A DNA stretch of 37,958 bases from a virus: positions 1 to 37,958 of the IMG/VR virus record IMGVR_UViG_3300042938_000269, one strand, 5' to 3'. Both the position numbers and the translations under genes were made by a program. Shown in pieces: positions 8,074-23,593 of the stretch; the stretch's first letter is position 1, and each line of letters begins with the position of its first letter. A model generated the notes under the pieces. That model was not told the DNA's origin. It worked only from the letters and a program-made list of their open reading frames with translations, and searched no databases.

Positions 8074-9594
8074 CTAGGCTCCCATCCAGTTTGTGGACAT
8101 ACTTTGAGGTGAATAATTACGACTTTTAGGTTCTACATACTCACGGTGCGCGACAGGGAATGCAAACGTCACGCATATAGCATCTGCTGCGTCGGGAGAA
8201 GCCAACCCCCTCGCCTTCATATCCTTCTTAGACTCTAAAAAGATTGTACCTTTAGAATCCGGTTTCATTATTGGTGATATTAAATCAGTTTTAAGCACTC
8301 TGTCACTAGGAATTGATGCGGTTTTCAACCAATTTCGCATATCTCCCCACATCTGAGCCCTTAAATTACCATACATCAGCGGATTTTTCGATTTATTTCC
8401 GAAATTCACGCCTCTAATCTTGTATCGTTGTTCTTTTAGCCGGTCGACAACCCCACCGCCCACACCGCCTTCGTCGATCACCACCAACGCGGGCTTATAT
8501 TCCTCAATACACTCAATGACGTGCCCCACGACCGTCATCGTATCGTCGCCTTTGAAGCGTTTAATGCCAATAATGTCACGCCCTTGCCGGATTGCGATTA
8601 CCGTCGAGTCAGAACCGAACCGTGCAGGGTCAACGCCCACAATAATAGGGGCGGACAGGTCTTTGAGCCGTGGCCGACGCATGGCTTCATCAACGATCGA
8701 TGATGATATGAACTGATCATCACCCGCAGAGGGAAAGTCACCATAGACCTCGACCGCAGCTTGTGATGAATCGGCGCCATATTCGTCGATGATCTGCTGA
8801 TACACCGCCTTGTCCGTACCCTCGACCGTTCTTGCGTCCACAATTTTGGTATTCCAAAAGTCACGCTTGGAGTTGTGGCATTCGTAGAAGTAGCCGGTGT
8901 TGCGCCGAGGGTTAGAGAACGCCAACCAAAAGCGGTTAGGCGTGTTCTCTGTAAAGAAGCCCGCAGTCACCGCCCAAATGGCGTCATCAATACCGGAGGC
9001 CTCATCAAAGATCACCATCACGCCGTCGTAGTTGTGAACCCCTGCGTACGCATCAGGGTTCTCGCTTGACCAAAGCCTGCCCTCAACCGACCAATAGCGT
9101 GTGCCTTTCTTTAGGTCGCGCTCGACCAATTCGGTAATCCACTTGGCGGGCATGAGCCGTGTGGCTGACACTTCAAACCAATGGCTGTTTAAGCTCATGG
9201 CGAGCCACTTGGTAATCTCTGCCCAGGTGACCGATCGTAACTGCGACTCTGAGTTGGCTGAAATGATGGTAGTCGAACCAATGCGGGTGGACAACATCCA
9301 TAGGGTTAGCCAACTGACCAACGCAGACTTACCAATACCACGCCCTGATGACGTTGCCATTCTGAATGTGTCAAAGTCAATCTTGCCGCCGTTCTGCTTA
9401 ATGTGGGCGGTCAGGTCAGACAACACTTCGCGCTGCCATTTGCGGGGGCCGGTGAAGTTTTCAAGAGGCGTACCCTTCTGACCCCAAGGGAACGCATAAA
9501 GTACAAACGCTAGTGGGTCATCCTTGATCTTGGGCGACCAAAGCGCCGACATTAGGCGCATTTCTTCGGCGGCGCTGTACTGTGTCGTTTGCAT
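8074..9594 (-). CDS. terL: Terminase large subunit
   Basis: 506 residues. This is the packaging motor that translocates and cuts DNA at the portal. ATPase part: Walker A SSGRGIGKS at residues 82-90, Walker B GVMVIFDE at 191-198, coupling-type SNPR at about 227-230. Nuclease part (RNase H fold): GVDPARFGSDST with Asp322, VVIDEGG with Asp374, and SPDAADA with Asp468 and Asp471. The 5' end overlaps the small-subunit gene by 77 bases in another frame, a long overlap. Internal ATGs at residues 12 and 15 are alternative starts, because conserved sequence begins around ALWSPKIKDDP. Confidence 0.95.
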   Translation of the reverse strand: MQTTQYSAAEEMRLMSALWSPKIKDDPLAFVLYAFPWGQKGTPLENFTGPRKWQREVLSDLTAHIKQNGGKIDFDTFRMATSSGRGIGKSALVSWLTLWMLSTRIGSTTIISANSESQLRSVTWAEITKWLAMSLNSHWFEVSATRLMPAKWITELVERDLKKGTRYWSVEGRLWSSENPDAYAGVHNYDGVMVIFDEASGIDDAIWAVTAGFFTENTPNRFWLAFSNPRRNTGYFYECHNSKRDFWNTKIVDARTVEGTDKAVYQQIIDEYGADSSQAAVEVYGDFPSAGDDQFISSSIVDEAMRRPRLKDLSAPIIVGVDPARFGSDSTVIAIRQGRDIIGIKRFKGDDTMTVVGHVIECIEEYKPALVVIDEGGVGGGVVDRLKEQRYKIRGVNFGNKSKNPLMYGNLRAQMWGDMRNWLKTASIPSDRVLKTDLISPIMKPDSKGTIFLESKKDMKARGLASPDAADAICVTFAFPVAHREYVEPKSRNYSPQSMSTNWMGA

Positions 9595-10003
9595 CCGTGG
9601 GTTCCATATCTATAGTTAACCGTTGTTCGGCCTGCTCAAGCGCGGTGATGATGCTGATCTGTTGCGTCACGTCCACTTGCACTTGTTGCTTGGCGACCCA
9701 GTCGTGTTTGTGTTTTAAGAACTCCAACGCCATCTTAGCGTCGCCCGCTAACGCCGCATCACGCACAACCTGCGACATTTCGGACTCTGAATCCGCACGG
9801 CCTTGCATAGCGGCTAATTCGACCACAGGGTCTAGCTGGCAGAGCTTGCGAAACTCTTCGGGCATCATGCCGGCCTTCAACGCAAGCGCGTCATTAGACA
9901 GACCAAGACGCGCAGCCTCATAGACGCGCAACAAACGCGACTCGGTGGCGCGGACTTCGCGGGGTGTGAAGTGTAGAGATAGCATTTTGCGATTGTAGGT
10001 CAT
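9518..10003 (-). CDS. terS: Terminase small subunit
   Basis: 161 residues, helical. The N-terminal half (about 12-60) has a helix-turn-helix-like stretch (YEAARLGLSNDALALKAGMMPEEFRKL) as expected for a packaging-site-binding subunit. The middle is a helix-rich oligomerisation segment (EFLKHKHDWVAKQQVQVDV), and the C-terminal part is basic (QRRRRNAP). Its position directly upstream of the large subunit supports the call. It is the first gene of the late block and faces the repeat-rich non-coding region. No good Shine-Dalgarno site precedes ATG 10003 or the alternative ATG at 9985, so initiation may be weak or leaderless. Confidence 0.75.
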   Translation of the reverse strand: MTYNRKMLSLHFTPREVRATESRLLRVYEAARLGLSNDALALKAGMMPEEFRKLCQLDPVVELAAMQGRADSESEMSQVVRDAALAGDAKMALEFLKHKHDWVAKQQVQVDVTQQISIITALEQAEQRLTIDMEPTDANDTVQRRRRNAPNVGALVAQDQG

Positions 10004-10014
10004 GTAGGCAATTT

Positions 10015-10020
10015 ATTATA
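10015..10020 (-). promoter_or_regulatory. Possible -10 element for terminase/late block
   Basis: A perfect TATAAT occurs on the minus strand. Transcription from it would start about 5-7 bases before the TerS ATG, giving an almost leaderless message. No good -35 is visible at 16-18 bases (TTATGC or GTTATG), so the site is weak or needs an activator. The iterons upstream could provide one. Confidence 0.3.
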
Positions 10021-10125
10021 TAAAAAAATTTTGGTGGCATAACCTCCGCTAGCTAGGGCTCCTCGCAGGGCCCTCCCCCCCCCTACCCCATGCCCTCAAG
10101 AATGCTTAATGCCACAAGGCCTGGG

Positions 10126-10243
10126 CTCACTAAGTCTTAGGTTGTTGGACAACCTACAAGCTCACTAAGTCTTAGCCAAGCTCACTAAGTCTTAGTGCCA
10201 AATACTCACTAAGTCTTAGCACCTGGTACTCACTAAGTCTTAG
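10126..10243. repeat. Five 15-bp iterons with palindromic core
   Basis: CTCACTAAGTCTTAG occurs exactly at 10,126-10,140, 10,161-10,175, 10,181-10,195, 10,205-10,219 and 10,229-10,243. Start-to-start spacings are 35, 20, 24 and 24 bases. A degenerate sixth copy (ACTAAGTTTAA) lies at 10,256-10,266. Within each unit CTAAG and CTTAG form an 11-bp palindrome around a central T, the form expected for a dimeric DNA-binding protein. The sequences between copies differ, so this is not a CRISPR array. Confidence 0.9.
10138..10156. repeat. Perfect inverted repeat (hairpin) inside the iteron array
   Basis: TAGGTTGT and ACAACCTA form an 8-bp stem around a 3-base TGG loop. It starts at the end of the first iteron and fills the longer gap before the second, which explains the larger spacing there. 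There is no T-tract on either side. A single-strand initiation hairpin or an operator are possible roles. Confidence 0.6.
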
Positions 10244-10268
10244 GATTATGTGCATACTAAGTTTAACT

Positions 10269-10296
10269 TGTAGGCAATGTAGGCAATGTCGGCATA
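10269..10296. repeat. Short tandem repeat, TGTAGGCAA type
   Basis: TGTAGGCAAT occurs at 10,269-10,278 and 10,278-10,287, with a third, altered copy (TGTCGGCATA) at 10,287-10,296. A further exact copy lies at 10,003-10,012, over the TerS start. The shared motif at both places suggests one binding factor acting at the control region and at the late-block start, but no factor is identified. Confidence 0.55.
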
Positions 10297-10349
10297 GTAA
10301 AAAAAGTCTACTGGCTGCTACAGCGCGAACCAAAACGCAGCGACACATA

Positions 10350-10435
10350 TACAGCTATAAAGCTATACTTAGTATTTTATAGAATTTAATTTATTATCTA
10401 TCTACTAACTAACTAATACTACAAGTCATCTAACA
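10350..10435. other. AT-rich segment, possible DNA unwinding element
   Basis: A run made almost only of A and T with scattered C, including TATTTTATAGAATTTAATTT and TAACTAACTAA. It follows the iterons at a distance typical of an origin melting region. The call depends on the origin hypothesis. Confidence 0.4.
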
Positions 10436-10535
10436 GACTGATAAATAAGCATTTCCCGTAGGTTTTTTTACCTAATTGTCTGACCGACAAACTTACCGAC
10501 ATGACCGACAAAATTGTGAGCTTTTGTGAGCTTTA

Positions 10536-10576
10536 TGCTATAAATAGTTGTACATTGCTATAAATTCATGTACAAT
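10536..10576 (+). promoter_or_regulatory. Early promoter overlapping a 20-bp tandem operator-like repeat
   Basis: TTGTAC (10,548-10,553) and TACAAT (10,571-10,576) are 17 bases apart, a good sigma70-type pair reading into the rightward early cluster. Two adjacent 20-bp units, TGCTATAAATAGTTGTACAT (10,536-10,555) and TGCTATAAATTCATGTACAA (10,556-10,575), agree at 16 of 20 positions. They place a TGTACA palindrome in each promoter element, exactly two helical turns apart. This geometry suits a regulator sitting on both halves of the promoter. Confidence 0.65.
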
Positions 10577-10609
10577 AAAAGCTCTTCAACAAACCTGGTG
10601 ACCTACAAC

Positions 10610-10801
10610 ATGAAACAGTATCAGTACAAATTCAGCGCAGTAAACGGCAACAAATACACCATTGTCGCGTCACGCTACAGCGTAGCTAAACACAGTTTTC
10701 AGCGCGTGTTTAGCGGCTGTTACGTTGTTGTGTACGTTGGTCGCTACCTTGGCGCGCCAGTTAGGCGCAGCGCAGTCGTCGCGATTGAGCGTGCGGCATG
10801 A
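10610..10801 (+). CDS. Early small protein, unknown
   Basis: 63 residues, MKQYQYKFSAVNGNKYTIVAS..., rich in Tyr, Val and Arg, predicted mostly beta. ATG 10610 was chosen because an upstream in-frame ATG (10568) lies within the promoter -10 region and could not be on the transcript. It is the first gene after the early promoter. Its stop overlaps the start of a 23-codon ORF (ATGA). No family recognised. Confidence 0.6.
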   Translation: MKQYQYKFSAVNGNKYTIVASRYSVAKHSFQRVFSGCYVVVYVGRYLGAPVRRSAVVAIERAA

Positions 10802-10869
10802 ATAAGATTCACGACGTAATCGCTGCGCTGTTGATGTGCGCTGCGCTGTTGTTAGCTTGCTTTCTCTAA
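10798..10869 (+). CDS. 23-residue putative membrane micro-peptide
   Basis: ATG 10798 overlaps the preceding stop as ATGA. The product MNKIHDVIAALLMCAALLLACFL has a short charged start and then about 17 hydrophobic residues, enough for one membrane helix. The coupling and the clean hydrophobic pattern argue for translation. A chance ORF of this size cannot be excluded. A second micro-ORF of the same kind closes the cluster at 12,586. Confidence 0.4.
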   Translation: MNKIHDVIAALLMCAALLLACFL

Positions 10870-10898
10870 ACTTCCCTACCCTAAACTAAGGTGCAAAT

Positions 10899-11156
10899 AT
10901 GATTGCCATACATACTAAATTTATCGGCGCGTCTAACACTAAAGGCGATCGCGTCAAAGCGTATACCGCCAATGGTTTATCTGTAATTATTCCTTACCCC
11001 TACGAATTGTCGTTTGAGGCGGTTCACTTTGAGGCGGTCAAAGCCTTAGTTGCAAAGTATCAGTTAGATTGGGATTTAACTGATATGCGCTTTGGTGATA
11101 GCGCGGATTTGCGCGGTTACGTTTTTTGTTTTGCAAACTCAAAGGTGCAAGCATGA
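10899..11156 (+). CDS. Early small protein, unknown
   Basis: 85 residues (MIAIHTKFIGASNTKGDRVKAYTANG...), mixed alpha/beta, no membrane segment or signal peptide. The start is well supported by AAGGTG seven bases before ATG. The N-terminal KFIGASNTKGDRVKA pattern is familiar from small phage proteins of unknown role. The 3' end overlaps the next gene by 4 bases (ATGA). Confidence 0.65.
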   Translation: MIAIHTKFIGASNTKGDRVKAYTANGLSVIIPYPYELSFEAVHFEAVKALVAKYQLDWDLTDMRFGDSADLRGYVFCFANSKVQA

Positions 11157-11434
11157 CCCATTATTTAAGAGAATTTCCCGACTACGATGCCGAGCTGCCC
11201 ACGCTCAATGGTTTTGTTGACGATTCATGGCACAACGATACTTGCCCCTCGCTGTTTAACGCGACCTACAACCTCAAATTGTGGTGCGAGTACGCTAACC
11301 CTGAACTGCGCGTAGGTACAAAACGATTCATTCTGTATTACCAAGACATTGAAGAATCGCTCAATGATCGCTTGATTTTGGAATCAGACAATTTAGACGA
11401 CATCAAAAAAGCCATTGAGGAGGCGACATTATGA
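11153..11434 (+). CDS. Early small acidic protein, unknown
   Basis: 93 residues, MTHYLREFPDYDAELP..., acidic, rich in Asp/Glu and aromatic residues. The start at 11153 is set by the ATGA overlap with the preceding gene and by AAAGGTG upstream. No motif is recognised. Small acidic early proteins can act as host-takeover or DNA-mimic proteins, but nothing here proves that. Confidence 0.6.
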   Translation: MTHYLREFPDYDAELPTLNGFVDDSWHNDTCPSLFNATYNLKLWCEYANPELRVGTKRFILYYQDIEESLNDRLILESDNLDDIKKAIEEATL

Positions 11435-11667
11435 GAAGTTATGGCGGAATTAACATGAATGAGTATCTTGAATCAATCAAAGCTGAGATTTTGGCTAACC
11501 CTACGCTGGCAGCGTGTACGTCAACAGAGGAGCTAGAAAACCATTGTGATGTTTACGAATTAGGCGACATAAAAAATCGCCATTTTGCAAGCCCTGCGAT
11601 AGAGCAAGATTACGTTAACGCAGCGTTAAACAGAATTGATGAATGGCTTCAGGAGCGCACAGCATGA
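11431..11667 (+). CDS. Early small acidic protein, unknown
   Basis: 78 residues, MRSYGGINMNEYLESIKAEILANPTL..., predicted helical and acidic. The start at 11431 overlaps the previous stop (ATGA) and has a strong GAGGAGG site; ATG 11455 is a possible alternative. The middle (STEELENHCDVYELGD) and the ending NAALNRIDEWL suggest a compact helical domain. No family recognised. Confidence 0.6.
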   Translation: MRSYGGINMNEYLESIKAEILANPTLAACTSTEELENHCDVYELGDIKNRHFASPAIEQDYVNAALNRIDEWLQERTA

Positions 11668-11831
11668 AAAACCAAATACTTAAAGAATTAAACGCCATGC
11701 GCGAAGCTGGTTTGCGCGTACCACAGCGCGCCTACGCGCTGCTTGAAACTGAGAACCTAGACGATTACGACGACATGAGCATATCTGAGCTTGCAGAGCT
11801 TTTAATCGACTTGGCGGGAGTGTCAGCATGA
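11664..11831 (+). CDS. Early small helical protein, unknown
   Basis: 55 residues, MKNQILKELNAMREAGLRVPQRAYALLETENLDDYDD..., with a basic first helix and an acidic second half. The start is fixed by the ATGA overlap and CAGGAG upstream within the preceding gene. The length and charge split resemble short DNA-binding or antirepressor-like peptides, but no motif confirms it. Confidence 0.55.
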   Translation: MKNQILKELNAMREAGLRVPQRAYALLETENLDDYDDMSISELAELLIDLAGVSA

Positions 11832-12004
11832 AAACTTACAAAGTAGTTATCCAAGCCATTATTGAGAAAACCATACTTGTGCAATGCGAAGACGAAAACG
11901 ACGCATACGACCAAGCGCATGAGCTATTTGATGCTAGAGCGCAAGGCGACCATAAAGAGCGATACGAAGAAAATACTTTATCTTGCGAAGAGGTGTCAGC
12001 ATGA
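11828..12004 (+). CDS. Early small protein, unknown
   Basis: 58 residues, MKTYKVVIQAIIEKTILVQCEDENDAYDQAHELFDARAQGDHKERYEE..., a beta strand followed by an acidic helix. The start shares ATGA with the preceding stop and has GGGAG seven bases upstream. The end GTGTCAGCATGA repeats the junction found one gene earlier. The pattern of beta strand, DAYDQA helix and acidic tail is common in small phage proteins of unknown role. Confidence 0.6.
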   Translation: MKTYKVVIQAIIEKTILVQCEDENDAYDQAHELFDARAQGDHKERYEENTLSCEEVSA

Positions 12005-12198
12005 GATTTGCATTTATCCCAAAGACTCAATATAAGATTGGGCAAATTATTGAGGTGCAGGGGCGCAAAATGCGCGTTGAAAGTTACACGCATACAGGTC
12101 GCAATTTGATCGCGTGTACGTTAGACACCGCGCCTAAGTTTGAACGCATAGCTTGTATCTGTACTGATTCTTCACCTATTAAAGGGGTTACAGCATGA
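12001..12198 (+). CDS. Early small protein, unknown
   Basis: 65 residues, MRFAFIPKTQYKIGQIIEVQGRKMRVESYTHTGRNLIACTLD..., beta-rich and basic, resembling a small SH3- or OB-like barrel (KIGQIIEVQGRKMRVESY). The start at 12001 is set by the ATGA overlap with the preceding gene. Two Cys residues near the C terminus (IACICTD) could bind metal but are too few to tell. Confidence 0.6.
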   Translation: MRFAFIPKTQYKIGQIIEVQGRKMRVESYTHTGRNLIACTLDTAPKFERIACICTDSSPIKGVTA

Positions 12199-12386
12199 AA
12201 AAATTCGTATGTTATTGGGGTGCAGGGTATGGCGACGAACACATTGTTAGCCACACGCTTGATTTTTTTCACGAAGATGCGGGATACGAACCTGACGATA
12301 TTAAAGAAATCAGCGCGCTTAAAGTTGGTCAGTCTTGGAAATATGGCTACCCAAGTGGCGATCATTTTGTGTTGAGGGTTGAATGA
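12195..12386 (+). CDS. Early small protein, unknown
   Basis: 63 residues, MKKFVCYWGAGYGDEHIVSHTLDFFHEDAGYEPDDIKEISALKVGQSWKY..., with an aromatic N terminus, an acidic middle and a beta ending (DHFVLRVE). The start overlaps the preceding stop (ATGA), with AAAGGGG upstream. A VSHTLDFF...YEPDDI pattern is familiar from uncharacterised phage proteins. No function known. Confidence 0.65.
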   Translation: MKKFVCYWGAGYGDEHIVSHTLDFFHEDAGYEPDDIKEISALKVGQSWKYGYPSGDHFVLRVE

Positions 12387-12589
12387 TGAAATATAAAAAC
12401 GGACAGCCAGTAGAGGTAGGCGACGTGGTACACGTTAAAAACCGCGCATATACCGTCTATTCAATCAGCGATTACGTTACGCTGCGCTCAATGTGCGAGC
12501 GCGGGTATTTTCGTTCAGTTTTTCCCGCTGATATAGGCGCGTATATCCCACGCCTAAACCCTTTATTTGCGGAGTTAATGCCCTTATGA
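12383..12589 (+). CDS. Early small protein, unknown
   Basis: 68 residues, MMKYKNGQPVEVGDVVHVKNRAYTVYSISD..., whose NGQPVEVGDVVHVKNRAYTV stretch has the rhythm of a small beta-barrel (SH3/KOW-like). Two consecutive ATG codons are possible starts; the first overlaps the preceding stop. The C-terminal part is hydrophobic and proline-containing. The 3' end overlaps a 20-codon ORF (ATGA). Confidence 0.6.
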   Translation: MMKYKNGQPVEVGDVVHVKNRAYTVYSISDYVTLRSMCERGYFRSVFPADIGAYIPRLNPLFAELMPL

Positions 12590-12648
12590 CCATATCGCTA
12601 ATCGCTGCTGCTGTGGTCGTTCTAATGATTCTAGTCTTCGACCTCTAA
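12586..12648 (+). CDS. 20-residue putative membrane micro-peptide
   Basis: ATG 12586 overlaps the stop of the preceding gene as ATGA. The product MTISLIAAAVVVLMILVFDL is one continuous hydrophobic helix. It ends 12 bases before a strong terminator, so it would be the last gene of the early transcript. Evidence for translation is the coupling and the composition only. Confidence 0.4.
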   Translation: MTISLIAAAVVVLMILVFDL

Positions 12649-12660
12649 TAACCCTCACAG

Positions 12661-12682
12661 ACCCGCCTAGGCGGGTTTTTTT
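12661..12682 (+). terminator. Intrinsic terminator of the early cluster
   Basis: ACCCGCC and GGCGGGT form a 7-bp perfect GC-rich stem around a 2-base TA centre, followed by seven T residues. It closes the rightward early cluster. The stop codon of the leftward primase-helicase gene (12,667-12,669) lies inside the stem, so the two convergent units meet here. In the leftward direction the hairpin has no T-tract. Confidence 0.92.
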
Positions 12683-14979
12683 ACGATCGTTAGGTTACTG
12701 ACAGCAGCCATAGGGGTTCCCGCGCGTATGGTCGTATTCTCAGCCATCGCGCGTAGGTCGCTCTTGTTGTGATCAAGCATATCCGACGCACAATAGATTT
12801 GTTTTTTGGTCGTGTGAATACGCGACGATATGCGACCACAATCTACCCATTGACACTCCATCAGCGCATGAAGAAGCGCGCCTTGGCTGACCTTGTACGC
12901 GCCAGGCGCGTTAAGCGACAAGGTGTCACAGACTGCGTGGAAGGGGCTAGCAATAACACCTTGTGCAAAAACACCTCTGCGCTCACGAATCATATCGACT
13001 AGGTACGATTCGTTCGCGCTCATACCTTGTTCGACTAGGGTAGTCTTAAATTCGGTCATTGGGGGCGTGGCAGCAGGGTTAAACGCGCTCACGTCGCGCT
13101 GGGCTAGCCACGCAGCGCAAGCACTAACACCTCCGTTCTCAAACCAACGCCATATCTTTAGGCTTGCCTCAGGGGTCATACGGGCAGCGTTTGATCGGAT
13201 CGCAAACCAGCGACGATCTTGGCTGTCTAGGGTAATGGGTACAGGGTCGTTTGAAAATGCAAGCACTAGCAGACGATTTGCCATATCGTAGGGTCGCAGA
13301 TTCTTACGGTTAATGCTCAAATACTCAGGAGGGGCAGCGATGATTGGCTTTAGTTTATTCGCCAAAGCGCGACGATCTTTCGCGTCGGGCTCGCGGAGTT
13401 CGTTCAATATCAATATTTCAGACTCGAGCGCGTAATTAAACTGCGAAGACATGGTGTCGGAATCTAGCAAGCCACGGTTAACGCTATTTGCCCCACAAAC
13501 AGCCCAAATGAATGGGTGCCACATGGTGTCCTTACCCGACCCTTGTATGCCCGTATGTAGGACAGCGTGGTTAATCTTGGTTTGGGGGTATTGCAGCTTG
13601 TACGCCATCACATCAAAACAATGGTTAAGCGACACTTCGTCGGGCACAAGGTGACGACAATGGTCAAGCCACGGGGTGACATTACCCGCGACACCTACGG
13701 GTCGGGCATCGCGCCATCTATTGCCATATACGTCACCGCCTCGGCTGACAAGGACAGCTTCACCAGCGGCGTAGGTAATGCCGACTAAAGCTGGCGCGCC
13801 ATTTTCTTGGCGTAGTTCGTCAAAGCAAACTGACGCCTCAACGTGGCGACCTGTACGGATTGACTTGCAAATAACGTGCCTGTACAGCGCGTTAAATGTG
13901 CCACGGGAAATTTCACGTCGGTCTTGAAGGTCAAAATACGAATCGTCAGACTGAATGTAAGCAAAACGGGCAAACCACTCGCGCTTTTGTACGCGCCCAA
14001 GCTCGCGGTGTTCTATTTCTACCTGACGACGCTTGACGTCATCGGGAAACGCCTCGGTAGGTGCGATGATTGAATACGTTTTAGCCATGACGGACGCCAA
14101 CAATTCATCGCGCAAACCTGGTGCTGCGCTTGGGCCGCCCTGCCCCTCGACCCATTCAAGGAAGATGTGGCTGTCTAGTTGCAAGCAATGGCTGTGCAAG
14201 CAACAATAGGCGCGCATAGAGGGGTTGTAGCGCCCTTGCGGGTTGCCGTCCGTGTGTTCATGGCTATTGGGGCACACGACGCCCGCCCAACCCTCGGAGT
14301 TCGGGCGATTAATGACCAAGCTATTCTCAGCCAACCACGCAAAAATGTTATCGGTACCGTCGTCGTCTATCTTGATCGGGCGGTACGCGTTGGATTCGAC
14401 GGGGCCGGAAGTCACGCCAAAGGCGCCCATAATCTGGGGCAAACTAAACTCACGCTCGGGGTGAAATTCGGTTAACACCGACTTGAACCCGTTGCGCTCG
14501 GGCTTGAGGTTGACGCTGCCAGGTATCCTAAAGTTGCGTACGGCGTTAGTCGCGCCTTTGTCGGTGTAACCCGCCTCGGCTATTGCCTTGATCGCTGCGC
14601 TAAAAACTTGGTGCGTAGGTTGATCGTCTAAGGCAAACGTATAGCCCCATTGAAAATTATCGGGGGAAGTTTCGATCTTCCACGTTGGTTCTAACGGGGG
14701 TGCTTTTGATTTAGTGCCCACGTCATCAAGCACAAGAAAGGCAACATGGTCACAGTTGTGAATTGACGCACTCGGTTTACTCTTAAACCGTTCGACAATA
14801 AACGACGCGGTATTGGCGTACCATGCACCGCCCTCTTTGTACTCGCTCGGGTAAAAGGCTGGCCATGTCGCCTTGATCGTGCCATCGGCGTGTTGTTCTT
14901 TCCCAACAGGCTTTTGCTTGACTAGCAAGCAAGTTTCACCCTCGGGGGCGACTTTTGAGATAAAATCGACGAAGTCCAA
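12667..14979 (-). CDS. Primase-helicase (AEP-like primase fused to D5-type helicase)
   Basis: 770 residues. The N-terminal half looks like a primase-polymerase: hydrophobic strand FLVLDDVG at 81-88 with two Asp, and NFRIPGSVNLKP at 149-160. A Cys/His cluster (CPNSHEH, 236-242; YCCLHSHC, 258-265) may bind zinc. The C-terminal part is a superfamily 3/D5-type helicase (DUF5906 style): Walker A GIQGSGKDT at 477-485, Walker B-like EILILNE at 521-527, FSNDPVP near 575 and DRRWF at 588-592. The start is TTG 14979, backed by AAGGAG seven bases upstream; no better ATG fits. It would prime and unwind DNA for the polymerase gene just upstream. Confidence 0.85.
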   Translation of the reverse strand: MDFVDFISKVAPEGETCLLVKQKPVGKEQHADGTIKATWPAFYPSEYKEGGAWYANTASFIVERFKSKPSASIHNCDHVAFLVLDDVGTKSKAPPLEPTWKIETSPDNFQWGYTFALDDQPTHQVFSAAIKAIAEAGYTDKGATNAVRNFRIPGSVNLKPERNGFKSVLTEFHPEREFSLPQIMGAFGVTSGPVESNAYRPIKIDDDGTDNIFAWLAENSLVINRPNSEGWAGVVCPNSHEHTDGNPQGRYNPSMRAYCCLHSHCLQLDSHIFLEWVEGQGGPSAAPGLRDELLASVMAKTYSIIAPTEAFPDDVKRRQVEIEHRELGRVQKREWFARFAYIQSDDSYFDLQDRREISRGTFNALYRHVICKSIRTGRHVEASVCFDELRQENGAPALVGITYAAGEAVLVSRGGDVYGNRWRDARPVGVAGNVTPWLDHCRHLVPDEVSLNHCFDVMAYKLQYPQTKINHAVLHTGIQGSGKDTMWHPFIWAVCGANSVNRGLLDSDTMSSQFNYALESEILILNELREPDAKDRRALANKLKPIIAAPPEYLSINRKNLRPYDMANRLLVLAFSNDPVPITLDSQDRRWFAIRSNAARMTPEASLKIWRWFENGGVSACAAWLAQRDVSAFNPAATPPMTEFKTTLVEQGMSANESYLVDMIRERRGVFAQGVIASPFHAVCDTLSLNAPGAYKVSQGALLHALMECQWVDCGRISSRIHTTKKQIYCASDMLDHNKSDLRAMAENTTIRAGTPMAAVSNLTIVKKPA

Positions 14980-22801: not shown

Positions 22802-22964
22802 GTATATGGCTACATATTCTGAAGAAGAGATCATGGCCATGCTTGAGTACGAACGCACCCATGAGCGTCGGGTGAAGATGTTGTTGCGTTTGCACCAGCG
22901 CGCGAACTCTCTGCGCGTTGCGCGTGAGCGTATTGAGTTGCTAAAAGAGGCGGTGCGTCCGTGA
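22773..22964 (+). CDS. Small basic helical protein, unknown
   Basis: 63 residues, MLITWRRLNEYMATYSEEEIMAMLEYERTHERRVKMLLRLHQRANSLRVARERIELL..., helical and Arg-rich. ATG 22773 is well supported by GGAGG eight bases upstream, inside the preceding gene. SEEEIMAMLEYERTHERR suggests a small DNA-binding or adaptor helix bundle. No family recognised. Confidence 0.6.
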   Translation: MLITWRRLNEYMATYSEEEIMAMLEYERTHERRVKMLLRLHQRANSLRVARERIELLKEAVRP

Positions 22965-23593
22965 GCTACATCGTTGCATCCCTACCCCCGCTCAAGTGTT
23001 TCGTGCGCCGAGAGTTTCTGTACAACTTCACCAAGGGTCACGGAGAATACGAACCCGCTATTTGGGTGAGCATCAAGGCACTTAGGGGTCAAGTGTTTCG
23101 CATTGAGAGCCTTCTGCCGGCCTATGGCGCGCTTTACGACAAGCTGCCTATCCACGCCTATGTGTGGCACACCGATAGCCCTGCGGCACTTCCTATCGAC
23201 ACGTTACAGCTTTGGGATTGTATGGGCTACAAGTTCACGGTCATTGAGAAGATCGGGCTGCGTAACCTAGGCGTTAAGTTTATGAGTAAAGACAAAGAGT
23301 GGGTATACGGCAAGTACCTGTTCACGGTGGACTTTTGCGCGGATGGTCAGGACGTGGATACTGGCTTTACCGAACAGGCCGAGGAACACAAGTCGTTTAA
23401 CTTTCTGAGGCTCGACAATGGTCAGTTTGCTTGTCAACCTAACAACCGGTGCTTGTGGTACGACCAGTCGTTAATTCCAAACGACACCAAGCACCCTGAC
23501 TTTCAAGCAGCACAAACCTTTTGGACGGTGGACGGCACACGCAAGTGGACAACCGGCACCGATTGGTTTTATAACATTGAGGAGAGGACATGA
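22961..23593 (+). CDS. Phage protein of about 210 residues, unknown
   Basis: 210 residues, start GTG 22961 overlapping the preceding stop (GTGA) with GAGGCGG upstream. Rich in aromatic residues and beta patterns (CFVRREFLYNFTKGHGEYEPAIWVSIKALRGQVFRIESLLPAYGALYDKLPI). Pairs such as LPIHAYVWH, LPIDTLQLWDC and the ending DWFYNIEER recur in uncharacterised phage proteins near replication genes. No catalytic motif, membrane segment or signal is visible. Confidence 0.65.
   Translation: MSYIVASLPPLKCFVRREFLYNFTKGHGEYEPAIWVSIKALRGQVFRIESLLPAYGALYDKLPIHAYVWHTDSPAALPIDTLQLWDCMGYKFTVIEKIGLRNLGVKFMSKDKEWVYGKYLFTVDFCADGQDVDTGFTEQAEEHKSFNFLRLDNGQFACQPNNRCLWYDQSLIPNDTKHPDFQAAQTFWTVDGTRKWTTGTDWFYNIEERT

Follow-up and report, generated by a model that had tools for sequence, protein, structure and literature searches.

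A probable accessory operon of eleven small phage genes

What kind of unit is formed by a run of tiny overlapping genes in a phage genome, how do its genes come and go, and is any part of it kept? The window, by which we mean the whole 37,958-base viral contig of a freshwater phage, holds such a run, with eleven plus-strand open reading frames in a row between the TerS gene (9518-10003, minus strand) and the primase gene (12667-14979, minus strand). It is a co-directional unit set between two minus-strand blocks, with a hairpin 3' of its last gene. We read it, at a probability of about 0.65, as a free-standing and most likely early accessory operon, whose genes are exchanged at their joints and which ends in a constant predicted membrane peptide.

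The string of eleven genes reported in the preliminary description was recovered as the same eleven frames by an independent gene caller that relies on codon usage and ribosome-binding sites, was trained on the large genes of this phage and gives no reward for overlap. For gene 1 the caller favours a longer start at 10568, which has no ribosome site, over the start at 10610, which has one (GGTGA). The operon genes look real, since pN/pS lies between 0.14 and 0.59 in every one that has a relative in the compared set; genes 1 and 5 have none among those loci, and a relative of gene 5 was found elsewhere. The products span 20 to 93 residues (genes 11 and 4, respectively), as first described. All on the plus strand, they begin with gene 1 (10610-10801; 63 residues, basic) and gene 2 (10798-10869), a predicted membrane microprotein of 23 residues, MNKIHDVIAALLMCAALLLACFL, which tblastn located in 25 compared loci and which has a pN/pS of 0.25 (0.11-0.33). 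Gene 3 (10899-11156; 85 residues) belongs to phrog_3199, a family of unknown function, and gene 4 (11153-11434; 93 residues, acidic) has a relative in Rhodobacter phage RcCWillis. Four further acidic products are encoded by gene 5 (11431-11667; 78 residues), gene 6 (11664-11831; 55 residues), gene 7 (11828-12004; 58 residues) and gene 9 (12195-12386; 63 residues), and basic ones by gene 8 (12001-12198; 65 residues) and gene 10 (12386-12589, or from an alternative start at 12383; 67-68 residues), the latter being among the commonest operon genes of close relatives. The last gene, gene 11 (12586-12648), encodes a predicted membrane microprotein of 20 residues, MTISLIAAAVVVLMILVFDL.

The products had been called mostly acidic or beta-rich. 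This holds for genes 4-7 and 9, with a pI of 4.2-5.2 and a net charge of -5 or lower, and for the predicted beta-barrel of gene 10, but genes 1, 8 and 10 are basic. Searches of Pfam, PHROGs, NCBIfam and PADLOC matched no operon product to a named family, in agreement with the original statement that no function could be recognised, and the predicted membrane peptides of genes 2 and 11 had no match in PHROGs. Structure prediction had been proposed earlier as a check; fold searches with the models of genes 3 and 10 returned weak and general matches only. The gene 10 product looks like a small SH3-like beta-barrel in its predicted model, a fold from which function is not deducible.

Upstream of the operon and adjoining TerS lie five copies of CTCACTAAGTCTTAG (10126-10243, plus strand), with the imperfect palindrome CTAAGTCTTAG. 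Most close relatives have 2-8 copies, and the remainder have other repeats; as a sequence pattern, these copies could possibly be an operator, an origin or a TerS site. A tandem TGTAGGCAATGT (10269-10289, plus strand) is also scattered through the corresponding interval of other relatives, with 75 copies (up to 2 mismatches) in 105 intervals and 0 in one shuffle. A weak sigma-70-like promoter match (10549-10576, plus strand), not above chance, lies just 5' of gene 1. At the other end, gene 11 is followed by a terminator-like hairpin (12659-12684, plus strand) that has an 8-bp stem, a 4-nt loop and a T-run after it; the hairpin shares bases with the stop codon of the primase gene, which faces the operon. 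Transcription would probably run from the repeat-rich region by TerS, against the primase gene, and end at this hairpin.

A nucleotide search of isolated phages with positions 9000-14000 of the window gave no match. A sequence scan of genome contigs found six matching contigs, probably stray phage contigs; they sit in bins of unrelated taxa, and hence no host can be named. The layout recurs in the annotated phage MW202483, where DnaA-like and cytosine methyltransferase genes stand in the corresponding place. Elsewhere in the window, a second run of small overlapping genes includes a phrog_3704 protein labelled ferredoxin (22961-23593, plus strand).

Gene content turns over between close relatives

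A primase search yielded 80 loci, most of them with primase, terminase and the interval between, and the close relatives were defined as 27 phages, the window included, with primases at least 84.6% identical. The interval holds 75 gene families across these 27 phages, 33 of them in one phage only. With the three near-constant families (1-3) set aside, the mean pairwise Jaccard index is 0.10, and 42% of pairs have no family in common. The large terminases are meanwhile 90-99% identical to that of the window. Invariant content across relatives had been named as the observation that would argue against an accessory cluster, and content was found to vary. The accessory character proposed for the cluster is borne out by this comparison, but the proposal missed a constant part, formed by gene 11 and, among the close relatives, also by genes 2 and 10.

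The operon of relatives also encodes proteins of replication type. A protein of about 190 residues that matches the beta sliding clamp (L003:13728-14309, minus strand, and relatives) occupies the slot of gene 3; its best match to clamp sequences has an E value of 7e-25, and it is much shorter than a full clamp. DnaA C-terminal-domain (DnaA-C-like) and DUF3310 proteins occur as well. This slot, which follows the 23-residue peptide, is alternatively filled by a DUF7227 protein or a distant relative of it (L007:8845-9534 and L006:4020-4775, both minus strand) in place of the clamp-like gene or gene 3. In L057 and L059, several tandem related genes of family 4 stand in one operon, as if duplicated at joints.

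The joints carry ribosome sites

The preliminary description emphasised ATGA overlaps at nearly every junction. With 12383 as the start of gene 10, ATGA stands at nine of the ten joints; the start used by most relatives is 12386, which turns joint 9/10 into TGATG with a 1-nt overlap, so that the count is eight to nine depending on the start chosen. Joint 2/3 departs from the pattern, with a 29-nt gap. ATGA itself is not special, since 14 of the window's 30 remaining gene starts have it too, as do 41% of joints in close relatives. The ribosome sites were found where they had been placed: purines resembling a Shine-Dalgarno (SD) sequence occupy -8 to -12, still within the gene before. Across 49 distinct family-pair ATGA joints of the relatives, the conserved elements are these purines and the ATGA, with G in 82% at -9. 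Judged from these letters, the repeated joint sequence would be mostly a ribosome site, and because GAGGTG at gene ends forms part of that site, several genes end in Glu-Val-Thr/Ser-x.

In those bacterial and archaeal gene pairs that have been tested, termination-reinitiation at ATGA overlaps links the translation of the two genes (PMC6728339). Since a ribosome site and then ATGA stand at the end of most genes of the operon, the translation of each is probably coupled to that of the preceding gene. Each gene end could in this way act as a socket for any gene starting with ATG, leaving the neighbours intact.

Local sequences do recur between joints, as originally pointed out: GTGTCAGCATGA is found twice as a direct repeat, at the left (11820-11831, plus strand) and right (11993-12004, plus strand) borders of gene 7, and GCATGA at six of the ten joints. 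At least 12 nt are common in register to 2 of 45 joint pairs; among the other starts in the window, none of 435 pairs has such a match.

Homology ends at gene starts

Homology blocks between loci tend to end at gene starts, with 22.5% of 864 block ends at most 5 nt from a start against 4.3% expected from shifted positions, and 52.5% at most 20 nt away against 15.8% expected. Such borders are also expected from selection against broken genes. Some blocks comprise a single gene from near its start to its stop, namely genes 4 and 6 with L023, gene 6 with L033 and gene 8 with L105, a locus whose primase is only 63% identical to that of the window. Gene relationships are incongruent as well: gene 9 is 89% identical in L033, where the primase is at 65%, and 55% in L023, where the primase is at 85%.

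One event could be resolved. Three otherwise different stretches (L213-L215), in which no relative of the primase or terminase (TerL) of the window was found, carry gene 5 (99% amino acid identity, 231 of 237 nt) followed at once by gene 9 (87%). In the window, genes 6, 7 and 8 sit between these two, bracketed by a 13-nt direct repeat, ACAGCATGAAAAA, with its left copy at 11659-11671 and its right copy at 12190-12202 (both plus strand). The 5/9 joint of L213-L215 consists of the left part of the first copy and the right part of the second, and is thus an exact recombinant. From the sequences, the difference may be either an insertion in the window or a deletion in the other phage. This exact joint, together with block ends at gene starts and incongruent gene relationships, supports the proposal that genes are exchanged at uniform junctions.

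How much the joints themselves contribute is a separate matter. Bracketing repeats of at least 10 nt occur in 5 of 39 block indels, collapsed from all loci and perhaps not fully independent events, against 25 of 999 control joint pairs (Fisher p 0.004), and the mean bracketing length is 5.9 for the indels and 4.7 for the control pairs. Long repeats as a general rule at borders were not borne out: in 34 of the 39 indels the repeat is shorter than 10 nt, and most have little beyond ATG(A) in common, so repeats help in a minority at most and are not the usual route. This pattern is compatible with ordinary compact packing, where stop, start and ribosome site simply coincide in ATGA and GCATGA, the joints are passive, and turnover reflects illegitimate recombination followed by selection. 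The frequency of ATGA at other starts in the window fits such packing, as does the make-up of the repeated joints, mostly an SD core plus ATGA, and work on mycobacteriophages favours illegitimate recombination, with boundary sequences not findable at most mosaic borders (PMC3029335). Against passive joints stand the excess of long in-register repeats, both bracketing indels and between joints of the window, and the exact recombinant joint of L213-L215; we give passive joints somewhat less than an even chance. On the reading that we prefer, of an accessory operon exchanged at its joints, recombination at the joints would add, remove or replace single genes or a few together, sometimes aided by direct repeats of 10-21 nt that the joints have in common.

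A predicted membrane peptide closes the operon

We searched 136 primase clusters (dereplicated at 95% nucleotide identity) for a terminal frame of 17-22 residues with a membrane span and an end of the form hydrophobic-[D/E/N/K/R]-hydrophobic; 66 have one no more than 600 nt from the primase stop. All 66 peptides have 19-21 residues; they comprise 55 different sequences and mostly end in [F/L]D[L/I/M]. Controls gave 0 such frames on the reverse strand and 3 in the rest of the intervals, and a looser count found a membrane frame within 120 nt in 45 of 80 loci, against 0.2 expected from shuffles. The peptide is present in 54 of 60 clusters with a primase at least 60% identical and in 12 of 76 below 60%. 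Gene 11 is under purifying selection, with a pN/pS of 0.22 (0.13-0.34) and a pS of 0.59. The possibility that the frame is a side effect of T-rich sequence or of the terminator was considered and rejected, given these two values and the absence of the frame from the reverse strand. The strand opposite the 3' end of the primase gene holds a hydrophobic frame of 16 residues (MLYLIGTIILLAVYLL and variants) in L068, L069 and L071.

When viral contigs were scanned with the peptide start, it turned up in phages whose large terminases are 94-96% identical but in which no primase relative was found in the stretch examined, among them L176, L178, L184, L194, L204, L206 and L208. In L206 (3383-7184), with a large terminase 95% identical, other replication-type genes lie near the terminal peptide, and the gene after it reads like a small terminase subunit.

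The constant part of the operon is, as far as these frames can be read, a terminal predicted membrane peptide of 19-21 residues, kept while the other genes turn over. It may even be the true core of the operon, that is a microprotein family with a membrane function of its own around which almost all other genes are replaced, in some phages together with the adjoining replication genes, a tentative reading that falls a little short of even odds. Blocking superinfection or altering membrane potential would be candidate functions, for example. Ibs toxins of type I toxin-antitoxin systems are small hydrophobic peptides of about 19-20 residues with one predicted membrane span, and gene 11 resembles them in length and in its single predicted span. 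Unlike them, it is part of an operon of overlapping genes, its position is conserved and it usually ends in an acidic residue followed by leucine. As to the antisense RNA partner of type I systems, a search of 9900-12900 in Rfam gave no RNA match.

Expression and possible roles

The genes had been described as early. Support for this is indirect and comes by analogy with other phages. Class I genes of T7 are early, and in the class I early region of T7-like phages the RNA polymerase gene is preceded by small, variable genes that are for the most part dispensable. The operon is likewise a string of small variable genes, and a relative of gene 3 lies in that region of the T7-like phage UFJF_PfSW6, directly upstream of the RNA polymerase gene. 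It differs in that the primase of the window faces the operon and in its constant terminal membrane peptide, and no RNA polymerase gene was seen next to the operon of the window. In Roseobacter phage CRP-5, a relative of gene 3 is located close to the left end, ahead of primase and polymerase. Gene 4 has relatives close to the left ends of RDJL3 and RcCWillis, the RcCWillis one within a small gene group convergent to primase and polymerase. Together with the clamp-like gene in the operon of relatives, the gene 3 relative ahead of the RNA polymerase suggests that the operon is most likely expressed early, and the likeliest role of its products would be early action on a diverse set of host targets.

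Host takeover and anti-defence, the roles first suggested, could follow from the position and turnover of the operon. An island in which small acidic proteins inhibit restriction, CRISPR or other defence systems would account for five small acidic products with rapid turnover, in a position that resembles the early regions of other phages. We nevertheless regard a dedicated island of this kind as unlikely: three products are basic, the operon of relatives also contains replication-type genes, and no product matched a named family, including any known takeover or anti-defence protein, in the four libraries searched, although these hold few anti-defence families. Less likely still is a set of small accessory factors for the neighbouring phage polymerase and primase, which the clamp-like, DnaA-C-like and DUF3310 proteins of relatives and the adjoining primase might suggest, but the operon of the window has no recognisable replication protein of its own and phages in which no relative of the window's primase was found, L206 among them, still have the terminal peptide.

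Relation to known systems and significance

We found little literature on hypervariable early operons of small genes. In the closely related mycobacteriophages Brujita and Island3, a small gene that only one of the two possesses is bracketed by gene-end repeats, the short form being a repeat recombinant (PMC3029335). Genes 6-8 of the window are similarly bracketed by direct repeats, with L213-L215 as the repeat recombinant. That single case, however, has a repeat of about 60 bp of 3' coding sequence (PMC3029335), whereas the operon repeats measure 10-21 nt and occur at several joints, those of the window consisting of the upstream gene end plus ATGA. The start-associated sequence (SAS) of Cluster K mycobacteriophages, a fixed 13-bp GGGATAGGAGCCC partly accompanied by inverted repeats, likewise places repeats with an SD core just 5' of many non-structural gene starts, in front of different families (PMC3203893). 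In contrast, the operon joints have only the SD core plus CAGCATGA or similar, inside the preceding gene, and GGGATAGGAGCCC does not occur ahead of starts among the joint sequences of the window and its relatives.

Operons of this kind are already known; what sets this one apart is the combination of repeated ribosome-site joints with a resolved event and a conserved terminal microprotein. Resolved gene-by-gene exchange at ribosome-site joints makes an old idea about the accessory regions of phages testable in real relatives, and a tiny, easily missed peptide that is kept amid so much change lends itself well to a membrane or superinfection assay.
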